A stretch of DNA of 39,088 bases from a bacterium (GTDB lineage Bacteria > Patescibacteriota > Gracilibacteria > Absconditabacterales > Absconditicoccaceae). Position numbers and translations under genes: made by a program. The stretch lies in contig JAHFJL010000006.1 in the NCBI GenBank assembly GCA_023245855.1, forward strand, positions 1 to 39,088, written 5' to 3'. Shown here piece by piece: positions 5,616 to 32,500 of the stretch (the stretch's first letter is position 1; each line of letters opens with the position of its first letter). The notes below the pieces were generated by a model, which worked only from the letters and a program-made list of their open reading frames with translations, had not been told where the DNA came from and did no database searches.

Positions 5616-8600
5616 TTATTTGAAATATTTGCTGAGATCAAGTGTTTGATTAAGCGTATTTCCTAAAGTATCCGTAGCAGTGATAACAACAGGACCAAGT
5701 ACATCGATAGTGAAAGTTGCTGTAGGTCAATTTTTAAATTCATAGAGTGTTGTTCCATTTCTTGTTATCTTTCCTCAAGAAATTCCAGATGGATCATCAA
5801 GAGTAAGAATCACTGCATAAGTACCATCAGGATTTTTGGTGATACCGATTTGATTTTCAAGCACCTTAGGTCATGCTGTATTTGTATTTGTATTTGCTGG
5901 TGTTGGCGTTGGCACCAGAGGAGTAATTGCTCAAACATCAAGCGTAACTTTTATTGTTGTTTTGTTAGAGAATCCTGCAAAATCAAATGCCACCACATCG
6001 AGATCATACGTTCCGTTTTTTAATCCTGTTCAAGTAACAGTGACAGATTTAGTATCCGTGATGCTCTTAGTATTTCATTGAGGATAACTGAATGTAACGA
6101 GTTGAATAGAATTGAGGAGAACCATTACCTTTCTGATGTTTTTGGGCGCTACAACACTATAGGAAACCGTAAACTCTTTGCCGATAGTTGAATCACGGGA
6201 GGGAGCAGAGACATTTACAATGATATTGGTATCAGGTTTCGCAGCCGTTCAATCACATGTTTGTGTGGGTGTCTGAACAAAGATATTATTGAAAGTATAA
6301 GTAACTTTTCCGCTAGAAAAGGATCAGCCTGTACCCATTGAACCAGAACCTATGAATGCTGAAGATTCTTGCCATCGTTGAGTAATCTCTTTCAGATCCA
6401 TACCATTGGGTATAAAGCTGTTGGGTACGATAATATATCCATTTTTAGTATTTTCAGGTGCGGTATAAGGACTAGCAGCTCCATTACAACTACTATCATA
6501 AGTGATGCTTTGTATAAGATCATCAGCTACAGGATCTGGCGCTCCAGCATATTTGAGAGTAGAGATCACTAAATTGGCAGGAGTAGAATCTGTAGCAAGC
6601 TTACCAGATAATTTATCTATTTTTATGCTGACAGTATCTTTGTCAGGCATATTTTCATTGGTGATATAATTATTTTTGAGCAAGGCACTCATAAATTTTT
6701 TGAACGGATCAGCCAACGCTCATCCAAAAGCATTTACATTCATTGCTGAAGCATCAGTATTTCACATCCAAAGCATAATGACTCTACTTGGAGTATATGC
6801 ACACAACCATCCATCTCTAGGACGATTTCCTTTGGGTGTTTTTACATCTGAAGTTCATGTCTTGAGCCCAAAAGAAAGTCACGCTACATTGAATTTATTT
6901 TCCCATCAAATAATTCTTGATGCAGAATCTGATAATATTTTTCGGATCAAAGATCTGATTCCTGGTTTAATAATCTCAGATTGTACATTCATTCATGTTC
7001 TCTGATACAAGAGAGAGCCGTCTCTAGCTCTGATTTCAAGGATGGGATTAATGACACCAGGAGTGTCAGTTGAAAGATGTGAATATGCATTTGCCATTTG
7101 CAGCATAGGCACTTCTGCAGCTCCCAAAGCTAGGGTATATCCGTATTCTGTATTTAAGTTCACTCCGCTTAAACCCAGCTGTCTCAAAAACGGTTTTGCA
7201 ACAAGTTCTCATCCGATAGCAGTGATCATTTTGGCAGCAGGAACATTTCTACTATGCCCAAGCGCTTTTCTGAGTGGCAACATACCTTCGAATCTATCAT
7301 CAGCATCATTGGGATGATCAGGTCATATTTGAAATGGGATATCAAAGATGGGGGTATCTAGAGTCAATGGCAACGTCGCTAATCCCATAGAATACATAAA
7401 GGGTTTCATAGCAGATCACGGTTGTCTTGGACTTCTCACCATATCGTTTTGTCATTCTATAGTCTCATTGAAATAATCCATAGAACCTACATATGCCAAT
7501 ACTTCACCATTAGTAGTATCTAGATAGAGCATAGAACTATTATTTGCTCCATTATCCTGTAAAGCAGGATTATTAGCCTGTAAAGCATCTTCAGCAATCT
7601 TTTGGATATTGAGATCTAATGTTGTCTTAATCGTAAATCAACCTTTGAAAAGGGTTCCGCTATCATATTTCTGTTCAAGTTGCTCTATAATTCGTTGGAC
7701 AAAATGAGGAGCTAACATTTGAACTGTATTTTTGCGGAATTGATAATCCAATCATTGGATCAATGCTTCCTTGAGTTGTGCTTCAGTGATATAATCATCT
7801 TCAAACATTCTTGTCAAAGCGAGATCTTTTCTTCCATTGTTATATTGGACATGTAAGGTTACACCTCATGTTATTGAAATACTAAATGAACCTATTCATT
7901 TCAAAAATTTTACAACATCATTATTGCTTTTTTTATTAGAAAAATCTGAACTATTTATAATGGAAGCAAATTTATCATTAATCTGTTTTTGAATACCGGT
8001 ATCTACTTTTGCACTATAATCACTTGGACCTTTGAGGGTAAAATCGCCCATGACTAATTTTCTATTTTTGTAAGGATCATACAAGGAAGGTCATTTAGGA
8101 AGAGAAGCCAAAATAGAAGCTTCGAGAACAGTAACATCTTTTGCAGATTTTGCAAAATAAGTATTGGATGCCGCTTCTACACCATAAGCATTATTACCAA
8201 AAAATATATAGTTAAGATAAAGTTCTAACGTTTTGGTTTTCATATCTTTGCGAAGTTCTGCAGGCGTAAGATTTCATTTTTCTTGATGGATCTGTTTTTC
8301 CAAAACCCCTCCTAATCTACTAGTCAAAATAATTTCTTTTAGTTTTCTTGTAATTTTTCTATCCTTAGTCAACAAAAGATTTCTCACTAACTGCTGAGGA
8401 ATTGTAGAAGCTCACTGAAGTCCATTGCGAGGATGAATAACATCATTGACTCATGCTCTAAGGATACCGATAGGATCAAGTCCATTATGTTCCCAGTAAC
8501 GTTGGTCTTCCAATGCGACGATAGCATTTACGATAGTAAGAGAAATTCATGAATAGTCGACATATTGCCTATTTTCATCAAAGAGTTTGTAAAGGATTTG

Positions 8601-8849
8601 TCAATTTCTATCTTCGATAAGCGTAGCTTCACTAAAAACCATATTTTTGATGCTAGTGACATCAGGCAAACCAACCAGTACATTTCTCGTAAACCAGAAA
8701 CCAAATACTACGGTAAAAAATACAAATACAGACAAAAGCCAAAAAAATATTTTCTTTTTTCTATTGGGGTGACTATGATAATTGTGTGAAGTATATGTTC
8801 ATCCACTAAAATTTGGAGAATAGAGTCTTTTTTGATTGAAATAACTCAT
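5616..8849 (-). CDS. mrcA: Class A penicillin-binding protein (PBP1A type) with C-terminal Ig-like domains (1077 aa)
   Basis: This bifunctional peptidoglycan synthase has a membrane helix (about residues 33-53), a GT51 glycosyltransferase domain with the catalytic ALEDQRYWEHNG motif (Glu114) and QQLVRNLLL, and a transpeptidase domain. Transpeptidase motifs are SAMK (nucleophile Ser479, preceded by a TGA-encoded Gly), SRN and KTGT (663-666, the Gly is TGA). After about residue 840 a roughly 230-residue extension contains two Ig-like repeats ending in DLSKYFK, joined by a Pro/Thr/Asn-rich linker. Typical PBP1A proteins are 650-850 residues, so this extension is notable and may bind surface polymers or partners. 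Start MSYFNQKRL is the first Met in frame; the end is a double TAA. The promoter at 8903-8930 is its own. Confidence 0.95.
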
Positions 8850-11497: not shown

Positions 11498-12391
11498 TTA
11501 GTTATTAGTTAATTTTTCTATAACTCTGATTTTAGCGCTTCTTGCAGCTCTATTGAGAACGACTTCTTTATAATGAGGTTTGATCGCTTTTTTGGTAACC
11601 AATTTATATTTTCATGTATTAGCTAAAGCATTGAATGCTTGTTTCACAAATCTATCTTCGATGCTATGATAGGTAATTATACAACATCTTCAATCTGAAT
11701 TGAGACATTCGAGGAATGCTCACAAAAATTTTTGAAGATTATCCAATTCGCCGTTTACCTCGATCCTAATGGATTGAAAAATAACAGTACATGCCTTATC
11801 TCCGAGTCAACATGTATTCAAAATCAGTTTCAGATCTTGAGTTGTAATGATTGGTTTTTGCTTCCTTGTGGTAACAATATGTTGGGCAAGTTCAAGAGCT
11901 TTTGCCGAAGAAAAGTCTGCATAATGTTCAAAAAGATGTCTGAGTTGGTCAGAAGAATAAGTGGCTAGCAAGGTAGCCGCAGATTTGGCTTGAGTAGTAT
12001 CAAATCTCATATCCAAAGGAGCTATGCCTCTGATGCTAAATCCACGCTCAACGGCTTTGAAATGTTCAAGATTCACTCCGAGATCATTGAGGATAAAATC
12101 AGCTTTTCTATCATGCAAAACAAAAACAATATCAGCATAATTGCCACGCACATATTCGATCCTAGTTCCGATATTTGTCCCTTGTTCGTTATCCCTAATT
12201 TCAATAAGTAATTTCGCTTTATTCATCATAAGCTCATCAATATCAAATGCAATCAAATGAGCATTTTGAGCTAAAGTCAAAAGTGCAGCGGTATGTCACC
12301 CATGCCCAAGTGTGCAATCGACTATCAATTTGGAATCAGGTGGCAAAAACGAGAGCACTTCCTGAAGCATAACCGGCGTATGAACTAACAT
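11498..12391 (-). CDS. rsmH: 16S rRNA (cytosine-1402-N4)-methyltransferase (297 aa)
   Basis: RsmH (MraW) methylates the P-site region of 16S rRNA using S-adenosylmethionine. Recognisable segments are the start LVHTPVMLQEVL, the SAM-binding DCTLGHGGHT (second Gly is TGA), the acidic strand IAFDID, the conserved DLGVNLEHF (usually DLGVSS), RGFSIRGIAPLDMR, and the C-terminal CIITYHSIEDRFVKQAF. Length is usual (about 300). No mraZ lies upstream; instead the region is a divergent promoter zone. The FtsL-like gene follows. Stop TAA. Confidence 0.95.
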
Positions 12392-12538: not shown

Positions 12539-12910
12539 ATGGAAACAGCCACAGCACAAAAAACAGAAGGATTGATGTTCTTTTATGTAGAAAAAAAGCT
12601 TAGTTTAATTGATATCACAGAAAATCAGATTTCCAATCCCATTACAAAAGAGGCGCTCATGACAATAAAAAAGATTGAGATAGATCTGAAAAACAAACTT
12701 TCTCATTGGGGAATCACAATAGAAACCAAAGATGGGAAAGAATTAAAAGACGCTTTTTCAATAGTATTCTTTACAAAGAATATGATAGATTCACAAATAT
12801 GGCCTGGTCATAGGATTGAATTTAAAGATTTTAATAAAGAATCTTTCATGAAAAAAATGGAAGAATTCGTTGAAAAATATGATATTTCAATGAAAACATT
12901 TGCAAAGTAA
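12539..12910 (+). CDS. Orphan protein, first of a tandem paralog pair (123 aa)
   Basis: A soluble, charged protein with no signal peptide or membrane helix. It shares its whole length with the next gene: GLMFFYVEKKL, ITKEALMTIKKIEIDLK, LSHWGITIE, IVFFTKNMI and a helical tail FMKKMEEFVEKYD. Alternating hydrophobic strands and two amphipathic helices suggest a small alpha/beta domain. I recognise no family. Unlike most neighbours it has no TGA codon. It is monocistronic: own promoter (12468-12495) and own terminator (12919-12948). Start ATG at 12539 has no clear Shine-Dalgarno sequence. TAA stop. Confidence 0.8.
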   Translation: METATAQKTEGLMFFYVEKKLSLIDITENQISNPITKEALMTIKKIEIDLKNKLSHWGITIETKDGKELKDAFSIVFFTKNMIDSQIWPGHRIEFKDFNKESFMKKMEEFVEKYDISMKTFAK

Positions 12911-13035: not shown

Positions 13036-13407
13036 ATGACAACAATAATAACCATACCAAAAATGAAAGGATTAGTGTTTTATCTGAAAGAAAAGCTCAT
13101 TGCAACTACTAGTACAGATAATCAAACTTTAGATCTAAGAACAAAAGAGATTTTGATGCAAATAGAAACTATTGAGATAGATCTTAAAGAGAAGTTCACT
13201 CACTGGGGAGTAGCGATAAAAATAACCAAAAACAAACAGACAAAAAACGATTTTCTGTTAATATTCTTTACAAAAAACCACATACACTCATGTGTCTGGT
13301 CAGGATATAGCACAAAATTTGACACATTTAACGAGAAAGAATTTATAAAAAAAACAGAAGAATATATCGATAACTATAACACAACAACAAAAAAATTTAA
13401 GAAATAG
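13036..13407 (+). CDS. Orphan protein, second of a tandem paralog pair (123 aa)
   Basis: The same length as the preceding gene and alignable from end to end: GLVFYLKEKL, TKEILMQIETIEIDLKEK, THWGVAIKI, LLIFFTKNHI and FIKKTEEYIDNY. The shared HWG and FFTKN motifs are the most conserved and are the best clues to a functional surface. It has no TGA codon, no signal sequence and no recognised family. Promoter, coding region and terminator are all duplicated, with a repeat period of 497 bp, so the copying event took the full transcription unit. By eye about 40% of residues are identical, so the duplication is not recent. TAG stop. Confidence 0.8.
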   Translation: MTTIITIPKMKGLVFYLKEKLIATTSTDNQTLDLRTKEILMQIETIEIDLKEKFTHWGVAIKITKNKQTKNDFLLIFFTKNHIHSCVWSGYSTKFDTFNEKEFIKKTEEYIDNYNTTTKKFKK

Positions 13408-22491: not shown

Positions 22492-22513
22492 TATTTCATC
22501 AATGTATAAAATT

Positions 22514-23872
22514 ATGAAACTTCAAGAATTCTTCAACACACAAAAACATATATGATTTACTGATATAGATAAATTAGATCTCTATCAGAGCATTTTATAT
22601 AAAAAGACAAGAAAATCCTCGCTCAAAAGGACATCTTTTGTATATACAAAATATTTTGTATACAGCACAATCTTCGTATTTTTGATGCTAGGAACATATG
22701 GAATGTATCTTTTCAATGGAGCTAACGTAAAAGATTACAACCGATTTGCGGTTACGTCAAATAGCAACAATATTGTACAAGCGGATTATATAGCACAAGT
22801 GATAGACTTTAATGGTAAATTTTCTATCGAACATAATGGTGTGATAGCTCAAACCAACAATATCGGAAATGGTGATACCATTTTGCTCAAAGAAGGAGCT
22901 CAATTAATATTCGAAATCAATAGCGGGACCCAGTCCAAAATTATCGGACCAGCTAAATTAGTCATCCAGAAAACTACTACAGATAATTACAAACTCAACC
23001 TGATCTATGGAAACTTTATTCAGATGAAATGAAAGGATCAAAAACAACAAACCATCGAACTCGCAATCAACGATATAATAGTAAAACAACAAGATAAATC
23101 TCAACCCATGAACTTCGAATTTGTAAAAAACGGAGCTAACCAAGTCATCAAAAACAATGGAGCTAATATCATTATAACAAAAAATAATGGTACAGATAGA
23201 AGCACAACAATGAGTAACAAGCAAGTATTAACGATCCAAAACAACGACATTAAATTGTTTGCAAATGTAGATAGTTTCTCTAAAGCCATCCAAGATAAGA
23301 ATATCTCACAAACATTTTCAATCACAACAACAAAAGAAGAGATAAATTCATGAAAGACTGAAGATAATTCACTGCTTGCATTGTTAGGAACCAGCCAACA
23401 AATAGCAATTGACACAAACAATCAGGAAATTACAAAAACCATTTCATCGGTAATGACCGACAACAAAAAAATACTTACTCCAGAACAAGACGATACACTC
23501 AGCAATACGCTTTATGCGGAATTTACTGCTCCTGAACTCAAGGAAATATCTATAGCATTTTCTCAATGAGACGACGAGTCCTTTACTATCACGTACAGCA
23601 AAATAGAAAAAAGGATTAAGCTCATAGCAACTACCCTTAATATAGAGTATACAAACCAATCTTGAGATCCTATTCAAAAGCTTACAGGAACTATAAAATT
23701 TTTGGATATACTGATCAATAAAATCAGTGGAGAATACAATATCCCACCAAAATACATAGACAGTCTTAAAACTATTCAAAATCAGATAGCTAATATATTC
23801 AAACAAGGACATGGAACAGCACCAGTTCAAACATGAACCACGACTTTAGCAGGTACTTGAACATCAGAATAA
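22514..23872 (+). CDS. Membrane-anchored protein with FecR-like segment (452 aa)
   Basis: A basic cytoplasmic head of about 45 residues (one TGA at residue 14) precedes one membrane helix (about 47-67). The external part starts with a region (about 95-175) of the FecR type: a generic signature of GDTILLKEGAQLIFEI, then a second strand pair with IIGPAKLVIQ and IYGNFIQM. FecR-like domains are beta-rich periplasmic modules known from anti-sigma regulators. No sigma factor gene is near, so this copy may serve in the envelope rather than in signalling. The remainder is Asn/Thr/Lys-rich with no known motif and a Thr/Gly-rich tail. Five TGA codons lie in the second half. The CutA-like gene follows after 36 bp. 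TAA stop. Confidence 0.7.
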
Positions 23873-23908
23873 TATTGTCTACGATTTTTTAATACTACAA
23901 AAAAATAT

Positions 23909-24151
23909 ATGCTTATTTTTTTTTATAAAAACGAAGGAAGGAAACTGAAACAGATAATCATCTGACTCCTCAAATCATGAGCAGCTACCAAGATTAGGAG
24001 ACTCAATTACATCCAATCCTATACCCTTCACGAAGACAAAATCCAAAAAATCGAAGAAAAAGCTGTAATCGTGGAATTCACTCCAGAAAACCAAAAAAAA
24101 GTAGAAGGAATGTTAAAAAAATCAGATATAAAAGAATATCGTTTTTTATAA
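23909..24151 (+). CDS. CutA1-like small protein (80 aa)
   Basis: The pattern of a first strand MLIFFYKNE, a helix LKQIIIGLLKSGAA, strand and turn NYIQSYTLHEDKIQKIEEKAVIVEFT and helix NQKKVEGMLKK follows CutA1, a trimeric ferredoxin-like protein named from divalent cation tolerance. It is shorter than usual (about 105) and lacks the C-terminal HPYEVP block, so it may be a trimmed or diverged relative. Two TGA codons encode Gly in LLKSGAA and before it. ATG at 23909. It sits between two FecR-like genes. TAA stop. Confidence 0.5.
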
Positions 24152-24255
24152 AATAAGAATTTTTTTGTCCTCCTTTATTTTAAAGGAGGGGTGGTACAAA
24201 GTACCGGAGGATTTAAATCCCTCTATCCGGAGTTTACCACGTATTTAACGGGAGA

Positions 24256-24321
24256 CTTCTCCTTCATCCACGAAAGTGGACTTTATCCTTTACAGGATTC
24301 CCTTCGGTCTCAAGGGAGACA
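24256..24321 (-). repeat. 66-bp multi-hairpin repeat, copy 1
   Basis: Read on the minus strand it matches 62 of 66 positions of copy 2 at 32703-32768. It can form three successive hairpins with arms CCCTT/AAGGG, TCCT/AGGA and TCCAC/GTGGA, and an outer TCTCC/GGAGA closing stem. The four differences from copy 2 all fall in loops or linkers. Confidence 0.85.
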
Positions 24322-24361
24322 GAAATAGAAATTTTCGAACTTGAGCATAGATCCAGCAAAT

Positions 24362-24389
24362 TTGCAAAGGGATTTTTTTTGTATATAAT
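24362..24389 (+). promoter_or_regulatory. Promoter of the gene at 24446
   Basis: TTGCAA (24362-24367), 16-bp spacer, TATAAT (24384-24389), directly after repeat copy 1. Confidence 0.65.
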
Positions 24390-24445
24390 TAAAGACAATA
24401 TACCTTCTACTTTCTACCTTCTACCTTTTATCTTCCCCCAAACTC

Positions 24446-25594
24446 ATGCTTAAAAAGATTTTCACAGGAATAGGATTAGGTTTACTCGCTTTTGTAGGAG
24501 TATATCTCTATTTTCTGTATGCAGGTGATACTATAACTTTCCTAAGCTGGATACAAACCAATATCCTCTATACCCTGACATTTTTTGTGTCGATAGTGCT
24601 TATCTATATCCTACAATGAGGAAACAAGATATCCGGGTTTTTGATGTTCGTAATTATCATGATCAACCTCTATATTCTGGGAGATATATTTTTTAGGAAT
24701 AATATCGGGCTTAGCAGTGTACAATTTATAACCTTATTTGGACTTATTCTGCTAGCAATAGCAGTGACATATATCACCCACCGAGTACGCTATATCTTTA
24801 TGAGTCTGATAGGACTGGGAATAGCAGGTATGCTTCTGATAGGAGTGCTTCCACTCTACAAGACCATGCCAAACCTCAACGACTTCATCCAATCACAAAA
24901 AGCGCAAATCATCAATCAATGAGCAGGATGAAGTGCAAATGAAGGAAAATTATTGATTAAAAACACCTTAGGGAGTAAAGAAATAAACATCAAAGATCTG
25001 ACCCAAAATGATCTCAATCTCTCAGAAAAGACTCAGATTAGTTTTATTTCACCAAATCAGAATACTTCACAAAAGATATTTATTGATTTAGGGAATGGTT
25101 CTTTTATCAATCTTAGTCCTCAATCAGCTATTACTCTTCAAAAATCTTGAAACAATGCCATTATGCAGATACTCCAAGGAAATATAGAATATTATATGCC
25201 AAAGGAACTTTCATGAGCACTTCAGCTTATAGGTCAATATCAATGAAAAAATATAGAAGACATCCAAAATAGTATTCGAGCTAACCTAGTAACCCAATTT
25301 GAACAAAAAAAAGAAAATTTCTTTATCAATCAACTCGGGGGAACCATGCTCCTCAATCCAACCGTAAACAAAGTAATCAAATTTTTTATCAACACGCTGT
25401 ATAGCATCAGTCCAAAGACCTACCAACAAAATCTAGATAATTATAATATAATCCAGCAATATTTTGGAAACAACACAACAGGAACAGCATTATCAATAGC
25501 TACAGGAGAAAATCTGAGAAACATCATCAACGATATCATGTCTCAAGTCAAAAAATGAGCGGGAGAAACCAAGATCAATCAACGATTACAATAA
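24446..25594 (+). CDS. Polytopic membrane protein with FecR-like external domain (382 aa)
   Basis: Five predicted membrane helices occupy residues about 6-26, 38-57, 62-82, 90-110 and 115-137. The rest is external and includes IDLGNGSFINLSPQSAITLQ and MQILQGNIEYYMP (about 210-255), matching the FecR pattern of a polarised strand pair followed by a second pair. A C-terminal helical region (about 265-375) follows. The combination of a five-helix membrane part with a FecR-like domain is unusual and parallels the neighbour at 22514, which has one helix. Several TGA codons encode Gly. It has its own promoter and terminator. TAA stop. Confidence 0.7.
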
Positions 25595-25644: not shown

Positions 25645-28509
25645 CTAAGAAACATCAGGTCATACGATATGATGAGTGATATTTTCAGCTATTTTCTTGT
25701 ATCCAGAAGCAAGGAGATGGATATTATCAGCTTGATATTCAGTACTTTTTAAAGCAATTTCTTTGTGGGTATCAATAATCGGCAAAGCATTTTCCGCAGC
25801 AAACTCAATAATAATAGTATTTACACGATCCACTTTAAAATCGGGAATTTTATCTTTGTCTTGAGAATAAGATAAGGTAGATACTACAAGTTGGACGGGG
25901 GCTATCTTTTCTTTGATTTTTTGAAGATTATCTTTGAGTTTAGCGATAAGTCCATGAGTAATATCATTAGTTCAAGTGACCAGTACAAGAGATTTTTTTG
26001 AATGTATAGGAGTGATGATATTAGAAATAAATCCTAAAAGCTCTCAAGTATCATATCCATCATGATAAAAAGTATCTACTTTAAGATTTCAATAAGAAGG
26101 AGTATGTATTCACCCTGCATGTGAATCCCCTACCAAAACTATATCATCCAATTTTTTTGCAAGAATCTCAGGGAGTATCGGATTTTTTTCAGTAGATTCT
26201 CAAAGAGGAGCAACACTATTTACTGCAGTCAGGAAATTTTCCAAGCTAGTTGGAGATATCAAGGAGATATCTTCTTTTTGGGCACTCGTAATAAGAGTTT
26301 CTTTACCAGAATATTGGAGCATATCATATCAGATTTTAATAATATATTTTTGAGTTTCTTTTGGAATGTGTTTGAATGTTATTGAATTTATCTTTTTTCA
26401 AGAAATAGTCCCAGGTCAGGCATTATAGTGAGCAAGGATATTTACGGTATCATCACCGGCATTTTTACGTTCACTGAGAAATAAAGCGCAAGCCTGAGCT
26501 CCTATGATAGGATTGGTAAATATTTTTTCGTATTCAGATCTAGGATATCATAATTTAACAATAAATTCTTTTGCTGTCTCAGGTATAAACTGAAATAATC
26601 ATTGAGCTCATTTTTCAGATCAATGAATTGTGACACCGTCAGCTTGATAGAGCTGACCAGAACTCTCTGTTTTCATAAGATTAAGCAGAATACCATAGGG
26701 TAATCCATCTTTTATTTCCAAGAAATGAAGATATTGGATAAATTTAGGATTTTCAGAATAATTTTCTTTGGGTCAAGTAGCCAACCTCATAAGTTCCGGA
26801 TCAGATTCAGATATCTTTTCATAAGAAATAGGAGAAATTATCATAGGTGCCTCCGTAGGTGATGATATTTTAAAATCAACAACATTAAGTAATCAGATAT
26901 TTATTCATTCTATAAAATATTTATCTCCTATTAATCCTCCGATCACAGCCAAAGCAAAAGAATCTTTATCTACATTTTTTGAAGTTATAAATTTTTTAGT
27001 TGGATCAGCCAATAAAGGTATGATATATTTGAGGTATTCATCAATAAATGATTCTTTATCAGTGATTTTAGTAATATCAACAATATTTTTATTATTTTCT
27101 AGAGTAATAGCGTTTGGAGCGAATTTAGTGACTATATTTGGATTAAGGGTTGCTGAAGATAAGGTCTCTACTAAAGATTTTTTAAGTCAAATATAATCTG
27201 CGGGTATTTTAGCTTTCATTGCTGTTTCTAAAACAGGAGTAGGAGCAGATAAATCACAAACTTTCCAAGTACCCGTGTCTCCATCGTGAGTAATGGTAGA
27301 ATCAATATTTTTCTGATAACGAGTATAAGCAGCAGAAATAAACACATTATCTATTTTCATATCATCTAATTTTTCTTGGATATATTTTTTATGGAGTCAA
27401 TTAAGCCCTCAACGAAAACCCAGTACTCATAATACAAAATTCATTACTCCTCCATCTTTTTTTTCTCAAAAAATATCAGCAGGAAAATCTACACCCACCA
27501 ATTCGCCGAGATTTCCTAAAAATGGGATTTTGATATCCAAAAAACTAGCTATCTTATCGATTAAATCCGTAGCTTTAGTGGTGAATTTTTCTCTGCCATC
27601 CAATAATTTATCAGCAGTGATAAGTGATTTTTGTATTGCGGTGATAGTTTTTTCATTGATAGGGAGAGCATCATTATCCACTATTTTCTTTAATTTAACT
27701 TTTTCATCATCACTAAGTGTGATAGATAGTGAAGAATTTAAGCTCAATACCTTGGTAATATCTAATGCATTTAATTTTTTTTGGTCAGATCGGATATTTT
27801 GTGAAAGAAGTTCCTTGAATTTATAAGGATTCATAAGTTCAGGTATGTTTTGTGATGAAATGATGATATTTTTTTTATCAGAAAGGTATCAAGTGATATT
27901 TTGGACCTTATAAGCAAGATCAAAAAATTTATTAGCAGAACCGAGCTTTCCAAAAGCGGTATAGAGTCATTTAAAAGCGGTACCAGCATCGGTTGATTGA
28001 GCATGAGAAAATGCAGTAAAAAATTCGGCAGATCAATGAGCTCACTGAGCTGCAAGAGTATCCATCATAGCAAATTGGATACCTACACTCATACTATTTT
28101 TTATACTATTAGAAAATCATCCTAATTCTTGATCTATATATTTTCTCACCACTTTATCGATTTCTAAAGCGAAATTTTCCACTTTATCCTCAGTTCATAG
28201 GATTATCAAAAGTTTGGCATGCATTTTACTATCTTTCATAAGTTCATACGCCCGATCTTTATTAATTTCTATAATATCTTTTAATTGTTTTGTCTCTTTT
28301 TTGGAAGTATTGGCTTCAGTGATTGTTTCTATATTTTTAAACTCATTTAACTGATTTTGAAAAACTTTTAATTCTTCTTCCAGTTTTTTTTGTTGTTTAT
28401 TGATATCCTCCTTTTCTTTATCTTCAACACCAGCCAAAATATTGGATTTTAATTGATCCAACTCTTTGGTTTTTATCTCAATATTTTTTTGTAAGTTTTC
28501 TTTATCCAT
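25645..28509 (-). CDS. Lytic transglycosylase - SGNH hydrolase fusion protein (954 aa)
   Basis: Three parts are visible. The N-terminal about 560 residues start with a Lys/Glu/Gln-rich coiled coil (about 1-75), then helical sequence of no known family; there is no signal peptide. Residues about 595-720 are an SLT-type lytic transglycosylase: LNLMKTESSG with catalytic Glu615, EKGAQGLFQFIPETA, and ILAHYNAGPG. Residues about 785-950 are an SGNH hydrolase: VLVGDSHAGG (nucleophile Ser796), VLVTGTNDITHG (block III), and DNIHL with Asp928 and His931. SLT enzymes cut the glycan strand; SGNH enzymes include peptidoglycan O-acetylesterases. Many Gly in these motifs are TGA. It is last in a minus-strand series with pilins and PilT. 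TAG stop. Domain calls are firm, the joint role is inference. Confidence 0.88.
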
Positions 28510-28611: not shown

Positions 28612-28688
28612 TGGAGCAAGCGACGAGACTCGAACTCGCAACCTCTTCCTTGGCAAGGAAGCGTTCTAGCCAATTGAACTACGCCTGC
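28612..28688 (-). tRNA. tRNA-Gly (anticodon GCC)
   Basis: Cloverleaf with acceptor GCAGGCG/CGCTTGC, D arm GTTCAATTGGCTAGAAC, anticodon arm CTTCC-TTGCCAA-GGAAG, T arm with TTCGAGT, discriminator T and encoded CCA (28614-28612). Anticodon GCC reads GGC/GGU, so this is not the tRNA-Gly(UCA) needed to read UGA, which is not in the window. Confidence 0.96.
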
Positions 28689-28830
28689 ATTTAAAGATTT
28701 CTATTACTCATAACCTGTCCGGTAAACCGGACCGTTCTAGCCAATTGAACTACGCCTGCATTTAAAGATTTTTATTACTCATAACCTGTCCGGTGAACCG
28801 GACCGTTCTAGCCAATTGAACTACGCCTGC
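28689..28830 (-). repeat. Two 71-bp tandem units derived from the tRNA-Gly gene
   Basis: Minus-strand units 28830-28760 and 28759-28689 each begin with an exact copy of tRNA-Gly nucleotides 1-27 (acceptor 5' strand and D arm). A GTCCGG/CCGGAC hairpin with tetraloop TTCA or TTTA replaces the anticodon arm. Then AGGTTATGAGTAATA aligns with the variable loop and T arm of the true gene, but without a T stem or a 3' acceptor strand. The units differ at two of 71 positions, and the true tRNA starts at the next 71-bp step. Confidence 0.9.
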
Positions 28831-28843
28831 ATAATAACTAAGA

Positions 28844-29638: not shown

Positions 29639-30013
29639 TTACAATAAATTTACGATAATTCTTACTATCGCATAAGAAAATATTGCTATCAAAATTCAGA
29701 CCAAAGCTCACACCAACAACTTATTTGCTTCTTTCATTTTAGCAGGATCACCCTGAGCAGTAATAAGTTTTATTCATCAATAAATTAACACTCACATACA
29801 GATAGCTCATATAGAAAACCAGAGATATTGATTTATTGTCTGAATAGTCTGAAAAAGTGTTGATTCATTACCTTGTACTTGGGTTGGTCAAGTAACTATA
29901 ACATCCTGTTGTCATTGGCTAGAAGGTACTTCAACTACAATAGCAAACGTAGAAAAAATACATGTAAATCAAATTAATGTAAACACTATTCCATGAAAAA
30001 AATTTTTCATCAT
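29639..30013 (-). CDS. VirB2/TrbC-like pilin, short form (124 aa)
   Basis: A signal peptide (about residues 1-25, MMKNFFHGIVFTLIGF start) is followed by a short Gln/Pro/Thr-rich segment and two membrane helices, LWFSIGAICMGVLIYGGIKLI (about 66-86) and LLVGALVGILIAIFSYAIVRIIV (about 99-121). They are joined by a loop with the hallmark AQGDPAKMKEANK. This is the pattern of the TrbC/VirB2-like pilin family of conjugal transfer systems common in CPR genomes: two helices and a basic cytoplasmic loop. Such subunits build the extracellular pilus of type IV secretion systems. Seven or more Gly are TGA. Either of two adjacent ATG codons can start it. TAA stop, 18 bp after the larger pilin gene. Confidence 0.8.
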
Positions 30014-30031
30014 AAATAATATCAAATAAAA

Positions 30032-30727
30032 TTAATGGGTTCAATAATAAGTATTTCATCAATTACTAGAAGAAGAATTAGATGATGTCGATGGAGGTCC
30101 ATTCAAAGAGCTAACGGTAATAGAACTAATAAGATTGATAATTCATAAACTCATAAGCGCTATAAGGATTCAAACCACAATAAATATAATATTTTTTTTA
30201 GCATCTTTCACTTCACCTCATTTAGCTGATTCCAAAACATACATAATTCCATTATATATTACCATAGTTACGGCAAGTACCATAGTTATTCTTAATAAAA
30301 ATTTAGTTATCCTCACAATAAGAGGAGCATTATTAGTTATAGTGACGGGATCATTAGTTCATCCAAGTATTTGTTGACAAAAATTTGATGGTCATCAATT
30401 ATATCATACAGCACTTATTTGTGTTTGTAAATCAGTAGAATTAAGATGTTGACCATTAACGGTACATCAACCAAGATTAGTCTGTACACCTACTCATTGC
30501 TTCAAAACCTCATTTCCCACCGCATTTTTGCCAGCTCAAAGATTTACAATAGTTTGACTGCTTACAGCAGGTTGAAAAGCCTGTTCTAAAAGATCTTGAG
30601 CATAAATTTTACTACTAAAAATAGAGATTATTCCTGAAGTGATAAGCAACAAAAAAGTAAAGAACATAAAATTAAATGTCCTATATGATCTGAGATGTAA
30701 AATAAATGTTTTATGAAGATTTTTCAT
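30032..30727 (-). CDS. VirB2/TrbC-like pilin, long form (231 aa)
   Basis: After a basic head and a signal peptide (about 18-43, ending KIYAQ) comes an external segment of about 85 residues rich in Asn, Gly, Gln and Thr with two Cys (GGCTVNGQ and NFCQQ) that may pair. Two membrane helices follow, IVRITKFLLRITMVLAVTMVIYNGIMYV and NIIFIVVGIVIALMSLGIINLI, joined by ESAKGGEVKDAKK, the same loop design as the shorter neighbour. The end is a Ser/Asn/Gly-rich tail. The two genes are diverged paralogs in tandem. Start ATG at 30727; it begins 5 bp after the gene upstream. TAA stop. Confidence 0.78.
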
Positions 30728-30732
30728 AGATA

Positions 30733-31143
30733 TTAAATTTGAGTAAGTAAATTTTCTGCTTCCTTATCTTCAATTTCCTCATGTTGTGCTTCTTGTTGTT
30801 TAATAGCATCCATTTTTTTTGTATAGACCATATCTTCCCGTTTTTGAGTATATTTAGTTTTCATTTCGTCCTTTTTTTGTTCATACTTCTGCTCTATTTC
30901 AGAAAGTTTTTGTTTTTCTCTTGTGAGAATATCTCTTAATTTATCTATTTGTTCTTTATTCATCATAGGTAAAAGATTAAACCACGATTGTTTTTCTTCG
31001 GTGGAATCCATAGATTTAGAATTCAATACCAAGATGATAATATCAGACATAGTAGTCAAAAATTCATCAGGAATAGTAAAATTAACAGCCAATTGTCGTA
31101 ATTCTTGCGGTAATTTTACTTTGATAAGATCTGTATTTACCAT
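30733..31143 (-). CDS. Charged coiled-coil protein of the pilus locus (136 aa)
   Basis: The product has a compact N-terminal part (LIKVKLPQELRQLAVNFTIP, then a helix with MSDIIILVLNSK) and a long Lys/Glu/Gln-rich coiled coil (about 68-130). It has no signal peptide or membrane helix and no TGA codon, so it is probably cytoplasmic. It lies 5 bp upstream of the long pilin gene and 26 bp downstream of the 64-residue gene, in an operon led by pilT. I recognise no family; a scaffold or adaptor to the motor ATPase is possible but unproved. TAA stop. Confidence 0.75.
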   Translation of the reverse strand: MVNTDLIKVKLPQELRQLAVNFTIPDEFLTTMSDIIILVLNSKSMDSTEEKQSWFNLLPMMNKEQIDKLRDILTREKQKLSEIEQKYEQKKDEMKTKYTQKREDMVYTKKMDAIKQQEAQHEEIEDKEAENLLTQI

Positions 31144-31429: not shown

Positions 31430-32500
31430 CTACTGTTGTCCTGCTCAAAACAACCACCCCACTTCTTTAGGGTCAATAATCTGTTTATCAATCAATCTTT
31501 GAGTATATTTTTTTAGATTAATCATCCCGATAAGTGAAGAGGTCTCAATAATATTATCAATTTGTTCTATCGCTCTTTTTTTGATATTATTTTTTATAGA
31601 GGTGGTATTAATCATAACTTCATAGATTCATACTCTGGATTTTTCATCTTTGGTTCTTACTAAGAACTGTGATTGGATTCAAATCAACGATTCGGCTAAC
31701 CTATCACTGATACTATCCTGAATTTCTGGTGGAAAAAAAGAGATATATCTATTTACGGTATTTGCAGCAGAATTGGTATGAAGCGTAGAAAATACCAAAT
31801 GCCCCGTTTCAGCCAAACTCAAAGCTGATTCAGCAGTTTCTCTATCACGGATCTCTCCGACAAAGATAATATCGGGATCTTCACGCATAGAGGATCTGAG
31901 TGCATTAGAAAATGATCGAGTGTCATGCCCAATCTCTCTTTGTGAGACAATACATTGTTTGGGTTCAAAAACGAATTCTATAGGATCTTCTATCGTGATA
32001 ATATTTTCATTTCTGGTTTCATTCAAATACTGAAGCATAGCTACAAGCGAAGTGGATTTACCGGATCCTGTAGGCCCAGTCACCAGATATAAGCCTTTCT
32101 TAGCTGAAAGAATATTTTTTTTGATGCTTTCAGCGATATCTGAAAATATAAGCTCTTCAAGATTTTTAGCTACAGCATTGATTTTTCTCATAACCACACC
32201 GACTCTTCCTGTCTTAAAAAAAGCATTGACTCTATAAGGAACATTATTTTTAGATACATAAGCAAAATCAGCCTCCTTATCGCCGAGAAATTTATCAAAT
32301 CTTTGAGGATTTCATTGAAAAAGTTGTCTCAAAACAATCTCCATAGATTCATTACTTAATTTTCCAGCAGTTTCTTCTCTAACAACATCACCATTCATTC
32401 TATAAGAAATACTTTCTCCTCATGACAAATGAAGATCAGAGATATTTGGATTTTTTTCTATCAGAGCTAGGATTTGTTCAATATCAAATGAATTTGCCAT
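31430..32500 (-). CDS. pilT: PilT-family pilus retraction ATPase (356 aa)
   Basis: PilT is a hexameric ATPase that depolymerises type IV pili. Visible parts: N-terminal PAS-like domain with ISDLHLSGGESISYRMNG; Walker A GPTGSGKST (Lys148); Asp box ITIEDPIEFVF; Walker B DPDIIFVGEIRD; His box FSTLHTNSA; and the C-terminal segment with SLIGMINLKKYTQRLI. Length is typical (about 345-360). The Gly pairs in LHLSGGES and elsewhere are TGA-encoded. It has its own promoter and leads the series of pilin-like genes. No pilB, pilC or pilM is in the window, so the motor may serve pili encoded elsewhere. TAG stop. Confidence 0.94.

Follow-up and report, generated by a model that had tools for sequence, protein, structure and literature searches.

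The gene described here lies on the minus strand of a 39,088-nucleotide stretch of Absconditicoccaceae DNA (contig JAHFJL010000006.1; hereafter the window), where a reading frame runs from an ATG at 28509 to a stop codon at 25645-25647. The frame is open only under genetic code 25, with 27 TGA codons read as glycine, and encodes a protein of 954 residues made up of a helical head (residues 1-560), an SLT lytic transglycosylase domain and an SGNH hydrolase domain (Table 1). An earlier reading of the DNA (the original prediction) had proposed a fusion of these two enzymes, and the fusion is borne out. The SLT domain scores well above the Pfam cut-off for PF01464 (41.4 versus 21.3 bits, E 1.2e-10, residues 600-705) and, with its Glu615 and its GLFQF and AHYNAG motifs, belongs to the SLT family; against the PHROGs collection it matches endolysin/lytic tail families (E 8e-14). 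The rear domain falls below the cut-off for Lipase_GDSL_2 (PF13472; 24 bits versus 32.9, E 6.4e-5), which is exceeded in relatives of the same layout (G001, G005 and G014); it is assigned to the SGNH/GDSL hydrolases by its sequence blocks (Ser796, Asn848, Asp928/His931) and by the predicted structure of the tail (pLDDT 83), for which the best Foldseek match is 1yzf (E 4e-8, probability 1.00).

The catalytic residues named in advance (Glu615, Ser796, Asp928 and His931) are found at exactly those positions, and Asn848, in block III, completes the SGNH set. The proposal that the same architecture be sought in relatives also proved fruitful, in that SLT and SGNH domains follow the same head in G001, G004, G005 and G014; because of this recurrence, the fusion is no assembly accident. 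Thus the domains, the residues and the leaderless state of the protein were correctly foreseen, and what had been missed is the minus strand, the constancy of the head, the swapping of the enzymes behind it and the shared C-terminal tail.

Table 1. Features of the head gene and its surroundings in the window
Feature	Position	Strand	Basis or remark
Membrane protein	24446..25594	+	Cluster 4; adjacent in 12 genomes, irrespective of tail; weak FecR hint
C-terminal tail PDVS	25648..25659	-	This protein's version of the family's C-terminus of hydrophobic plus small residues
SGNH/GDSL hydrolase domain, residues 784-950	25660..26160	-	Ser796, Asn848, Asp928, His931; fold match
SLT lytic transglycosylase domain	26305..26817	-	Glu615; GAQGLFQF and AHYNAGPG motifs; PF01464
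Head core, residues ~265-560, GxGFxGGxxGL motif (G364, G367, G368, G371)	26830..27717	-	26 of 27 members
Head, residues 1-560, all-helical	26830..28509	-	Profile search, AF2 model
tRNA-Gly(GCC)	28612..28688	-	Upstream of head gene
VirB2/T4SS-pilin-like protein	29639..30025	-	PF18895, 32.9 bits versus cut-off 26.6
Second, weaker T4SS-pilin-like protein	30032..30727	-	PF18895, 18 bits, below cut-off; NF045849, E 1.7e-4
136-aa coiled protein	30733..31143	-	Cluster 2, 13 genomes; beside both pilins in nearly all cassette genomes
PilT-type pilus ATPase, end of pilin cassette	31430..32500	-	TIGR01420, 361.6 bits versus cut-off 319.1

A constant head and exchanged tails

The head is a new helical domain, seen only in the taxonomic family of the window's organism and without a match to a solved fold. 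By profile search it is present in exactly one copy per genome in 27 of 49 genomes searched from the SR1/Absconditabacteria taxonomic family, covering 9 of 22 genera; across some 300 further genomes of the class, for which gene calls were mechanical, the head was not found and matches were to the SLT part only. It is likewise without match in the viral contigs searched and in Pfam, and a PDB sequence search with it returned only coiled-coil noise. An AlphaFold2 model built from 26 sequences is all-helical (pLDDT 84.2, pTM 0.72), and a Foldseek search with this model gave nothing at E<=0.001 in the PDB or BFVD. Around half of the family's genomes, most relatives being incomplete MAGs, are without the head, which is therefore not required for the lifestyle as such.

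Within the 26 sequences Gly368 is invariant and Gly364, Gly367 and Gly371 are nearly so. Three members are missing residues 1 to ~265 and keep the second half (~265-560), and one, G010, is the exception in having the first part of the head only. The core is accordingly taken to be the second half, which bears the GxGFxGGxxGL motif.

Behind this one head stand tails of at least six chemistries (Table 2), those assignments given as weak being sub-threshold Pfam matches and alignments. No enzyme was recognised in the tails of G065 and G029, and in G011 a frameshift may cut the gene. An assignment of the G007 tail to GH108, suggested by eye from an EGGY motif, was not adopted, there being no match in Pfam, NCBIfam or the PDB. 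In G019 (L028:7008-9911) the last module, residues 811-941, carries the sequence CNHGADRNG and replaces the SGNH domain; its match to PF03162 (E 4e-4) is below the cut-off.

Table 2. Enzymatic tails found behind the head
Tail	Genomes	Basis or remark
SLT + SGNH	G000, G001, G004, G005, G014	
SLT alone	G071	
Phage-type lytic transglycosylase + SGNH	G008	9udh, E 1.5e-40; PHROG 4928, E 1.5e-48
GH19-like	G068, G069	Weak assignment
GH19-like + SGNH	G064	Weak, E ~0.001
Phage_lysozyme2-like	G067, G006; by alignment G003, G022, G066	Weak
Glucosaminidase-like	G010, G024, G059; by alignment G026, G030, G021	Weak
VanY	G070	33.7 bits versus cut-off 25
Degenerate SLT + tyrosine-phosphatase-like domain	G019	

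The histories of head and tail differ. On a quick tree of the heads, in which the long branches of G014 and G019 are unsure, genus changes seven times, which is the minimum, tail class ten times and the SGNH domain five times. The SLT domain of G071 is 56-62% identical to those of genus g1, the corresponding heads being 30-33% identical, and glucosaminidase-like tails from different genera are mostly 45-58% identical, with heads at 21-29%. Tail identities so far above head identities between genera imply, therefore, that tails have moved between lineages. The SGNH domain of the 954-residue protein is, moreover, 56% identical to that of G008, in which the middle transglycosylase is of a different family; thus, the middle enzyme has been replaced between the head and the SGNH domain. 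Taken together, the family is firmly described as a modular leaderless protein with a vertically inherited head and swapped tails. In all other genomes having both head and SGNH domain, the latter follows a peptidoglycan glycosidase (SLT, phage-type lytic transglycosylase or GH19-like), an arrangement to be expected if the domain clears O-acetyl groups out of the way of these enzymes.

The termini and a possible route out of the cell

The N terminus of the 954-residue protein is not hydrophobic, the highest Kyte-Doolittle mean over any 15-residue stretch of residues 1-70 being -0.12, which accords with the signal peptide previously noted as missing. By hydropathy none of the 27 members has a hydrophobic N terminus, a signal peptide or a clear transmembrane segment, and we agree with the earlier view that export would need another route. 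As a control, 12 SLT proteins without a head, from 12 relatives (L077-L084 and L086-L089), all carry a hydrophobic segment at the N terminus, and their last residue is K, R, Q, D or N; two that lack both head and leader (G028, G033) end in A.

The C termini of the head proteins are biased in composition. The last residue is alanine in 16 of 26, versus 2.3% of 218 conserved neighbouring genes, and A, S or T in 21 of 26, versus 6.0% of the same genes; the binomial P for the alanine excess (~1e-20) is overstated, the proteins being related. At least one member ending in -A occurs in 7 of the 9 genera, over non-homologous tails. The motif is short and degenerate, with the 954-residue protein ending VS and G014 ending SK, and of the 53 places in the genomes where the tail pattern matches, 30 were inspected; the sole long reading frames there were head-family members, with no wider cargo set emerging. 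The shared C terminus may thus be regarded as a candidate export signal, as judged from sequence. The leaderless state of the members, the C-terminal bias and the SLT control together point to a non-Sec route, the information for which would lie in the head, the C terminus or both.

A second, shorter type of leaderless protein (L027:7823-8965, L073:4905-5870 and L097) was also observed, with an SLT or glucosaminidase-like domain and KKxIxK...N N termini that are similar by eye; all three end in -A (KYNA, KLVA, EYLA).

Genomic neighbourhood and wall chemistry

VirB2-like pilins had been reported nearby; they start 1.1 kb upstream of the head gene, and the nearer one exceeds the PF18895 cut-off (Table 1). 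The pilin cassette adjoins the head gene in no more than about half of the genomes, and the adjacency is in part ordinary synteny, because clusters 10, 12 and 16 and tRNA-Gly travel too. The tRNA-Gly gene is beside the head gene in most g1 relatives and in the g15 genome G022; in two g14 genomes it lies a few kb off. Upstream of the intact copy in the window, two more partial tRNA-Gly 5' halves lie in tandem at 28662-28832 with a 71-nt period, a decayed tRNA array. On the other side, genes of 456, 80 and 382 residues (22502-25594) are kept beside the head gene in most g1 relatives and in certain other genomes; two of the products resemble membrane proteins, and one has the weak FecR hint. In three genomes whose tails differ (G004, G006 and G022; L019:4669-5424, L052:2327-3112 and L025:11108-11863), the gene immediately downstream of the head gene encodes a monofunctional peptidoglycan glycosyltransferase (PF00912).

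VirB4- and coupling-protein-type ATPases were found in all 14 genomes tested, the coupling-protein matches (PF12696) being weak and possibly including other P-loop ATPases. The VirB4-type match is on contig C26 and the window on C13, so the head gene is not encoded with virB4. No tail-matched immunity gene was found, the flanking genes in g1 differing little between tail types. The lack of such a gene is unusual for antibacterial effectors, but a predator that attacks other species runs little risk from its kin.

With respect to the wall, the window's organism probably makes its own; a PBP gene (5616-8849) and an RsmH/MraW-like gene (11498-12391) are recognised from sequence. A search of 14 genomes gave AT3-type acetyltransferases (the OatA family) in one and MBOAT proteins in none, and neither an OatA- nor a PatA-type acetyltransferase was recognised in the window's own genome. 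It follows that the SGNH domain, if acting on O-acetyl-MurNAc, would more likely serve a foreign wall. The folds nearest to the SGNH model are those of general lipases, thioesterases, sialate O-acetylesterases, Cj0610c and OatA, the last two being listed by Foldseek among many SGNH enzymes and not singled out. O-Acetylation blocks lytic transglycosylases and lysozymes (PMC6174289). The activity proposed for the domain is removal of the 6-O-acetyl group from MurNAc.

Possible roles of the head protein

On balance, we lean slightly towards the view that the head protein is a single-copy modular wall hydrolase which is exported without Sec and cuts the peptidoglycan of the bacterium to which the cell is attached; the two Absconditabacteria in cultivation are lethal to their hosts (PMC11452946, PMC8080830). 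The original prediction had named an effector against the host wall as a tempting idea, and as one worth testing it holds up. Export, the foreign target, the SGNH substrate and the exporting machine are all parts of this account that we infer. The constant head, perhaps with the short C-terminal tail, would carry the protein out, and the exchangeable rear enzymes would then cut the foreign peptidoglycan. In the 954-residue protein, the SGNH domain would first strip ester groups, most likely 6-O-acetyl, from MurNAc, and the de-esterified strand would let the transglycosylase make 1,6-anhydro ends. A T4SS-like system using the neighbouring pilins is the first candidate for the exporter, although a less than even one.

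Several known systems share features with such a protein. The X-Tfe effectors of Xanthomonas and Stenotrophomonas (e.g. XAC2609 and TfcB) are likewise leaderless and join a constant region to varied antibacterial enzymes, including GH19 peptidoglycan hydrolases (PMC10933484, PMC11253643); as with these, the head protein lacks a signal peptide, its genome has T4SS-type ATPases and its enzyme is predicted to be antibacterial. By contrast, the constant region here is N-terminal, about 560 residues long and unrelated, there is one copy per genome with no immunity gene seen, and no C-terminal, VirD4-binding XVIPCD domain was found by Pfam, the enzyme reaching to the last few residues. Polymorphic toxins also have a constant front and an exchanged enzymatic rear, but an adjacent tail-matched immunity gene is missing here, and all enzymes recognised, except the phosphatase-like tail of G019, act on or beside peptidoglycan. 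In Neisseria, the lytic transglycosylase LtgA and the SGNH O-acetyl-peptidoglycan esterase Ape1 form a complex with mutual stimulation, which supports in trans the principle of the same two chemistries working together (PMC7083599), the esterase role here being a presumed one; there, however, two proteins work on the cell's own wall, whereas here a single chain has no signal peptide. VirB1, TraG and PrgK, the wall hydrolases of T4SSs, resemble the head protein in being multi-domain peptidoglycan hydrolases near pilin genes, and differ in that the latter has no signal peptide or transmembrane segment, is not beside virB4 and is not constant in enzyme type. Phage tail lysins and internal virion proteins are close in their SLT and lysozyme domains (PHROGs 669, 196 and 4928), but the head is absent from the viral contigs searched and its gene is not in a phage locus.

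Some of these likenesses suggest other readings. The protein might be a VirB1-like space-maker, opening the cell's own wall for the neighbouring pilus/T4SS-like machine, in which case any glycan-cutting domain would serve and swaps would follow; the original prediction had floated a VirB1-like role as the other tempting idea. The pilins, the PilT ATPase and the 136-residue protein do adjoin the head gene in about half of the genomes, even where their order is rearranged; in some monoderms the VirB1 type is a two-domain peptidoglycan hydrolase (PMC12102498); and the glycosyltransferase gene follows the head gene in the three genomes mentioned. Yet in many genomes the head is present and the cassette is not, one member carries VanY, there is no signal peptide, and the genome has no recognised O-acetyltransferase as the source of a self substrate for the SGNH domain. 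Most genus relatives, moreover, have a separate SLT protein with a membrane segment (not found in the window's genome, which is 90.6% complete), and with VirB4 encoded elsewhere and the catalytic domain exchanged too freely, a VirB1-like role becomes unlikely. The missing signal peptide would also suit a protein that stays in the cytoplasm until lysis frees it, or an autolysin acting at a set time; the -A terminus would then be an ssrA-like proteolysis tag and not an export signal, and non-polar C-terminal -A ends do resemble C-terminal degrons. It is difficult, however, to see repeated swaps for other wall enzymes that still bear active sites persisting if there were no wall substrate, and the conserved 560-residue head would be unexplained, which makes this reading decidedly unlikely.

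Descent from a phage or virion-associated lysin of the tape-measure or tail-lysin kind, domesticated and with no role against hosts, could account for tails that resemble phage endolysins and baseplate hubs, and for a helical head with weak tape-measure matches (best in BFVD E 0.015, TM<0.1). No phage genes were recognised beside the head gene, though, and the head is inherited vertically, in one copy per genome. With the head also on none of the viral contigs searched and without a Foldseek match, and no contractile sheath in 12 genomes, a phage origin was set aside as very improbable.

A broader proposal extends the preferred reading, that of a wall hydrolase exported against an attached bacterium. 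It is possible, if doubtful, that SR1 bacteria possess a new class of leaderless modular effectors, in which a helical carrier and a short C-terminal signal would deliver exchangeable peptidoglycan-cutting warheads, in some cases accompanied by a de-esterase, to the wall of the bacterium fed on, by way of a T4SS-like machine that lacks a relaxase. The head protein is a concrete, testable cargo candidate for the widespread T4SS-like machinery of host-dependent Patescibacteria, bearing on how these, the Absconditabacteria included, breach another bacterium's wall, and the head could mark host-attacking lineages. In the SLT-SGNH version, the partnership of transglycosylase and de-O-acetylase, so far known as two proteins, would be united in cis on one chain.

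Elsewhere in the window, positions 1-2519 of the minus strand hold a 23S rRNA gene truncated where the contig ends (Rfam, 2015.6 bits), the reading frames there being spurious, and adjacent paralogous proteins of 123 residues, falling in one cluster, are encoded at 12539-12910 and 13036-13407.
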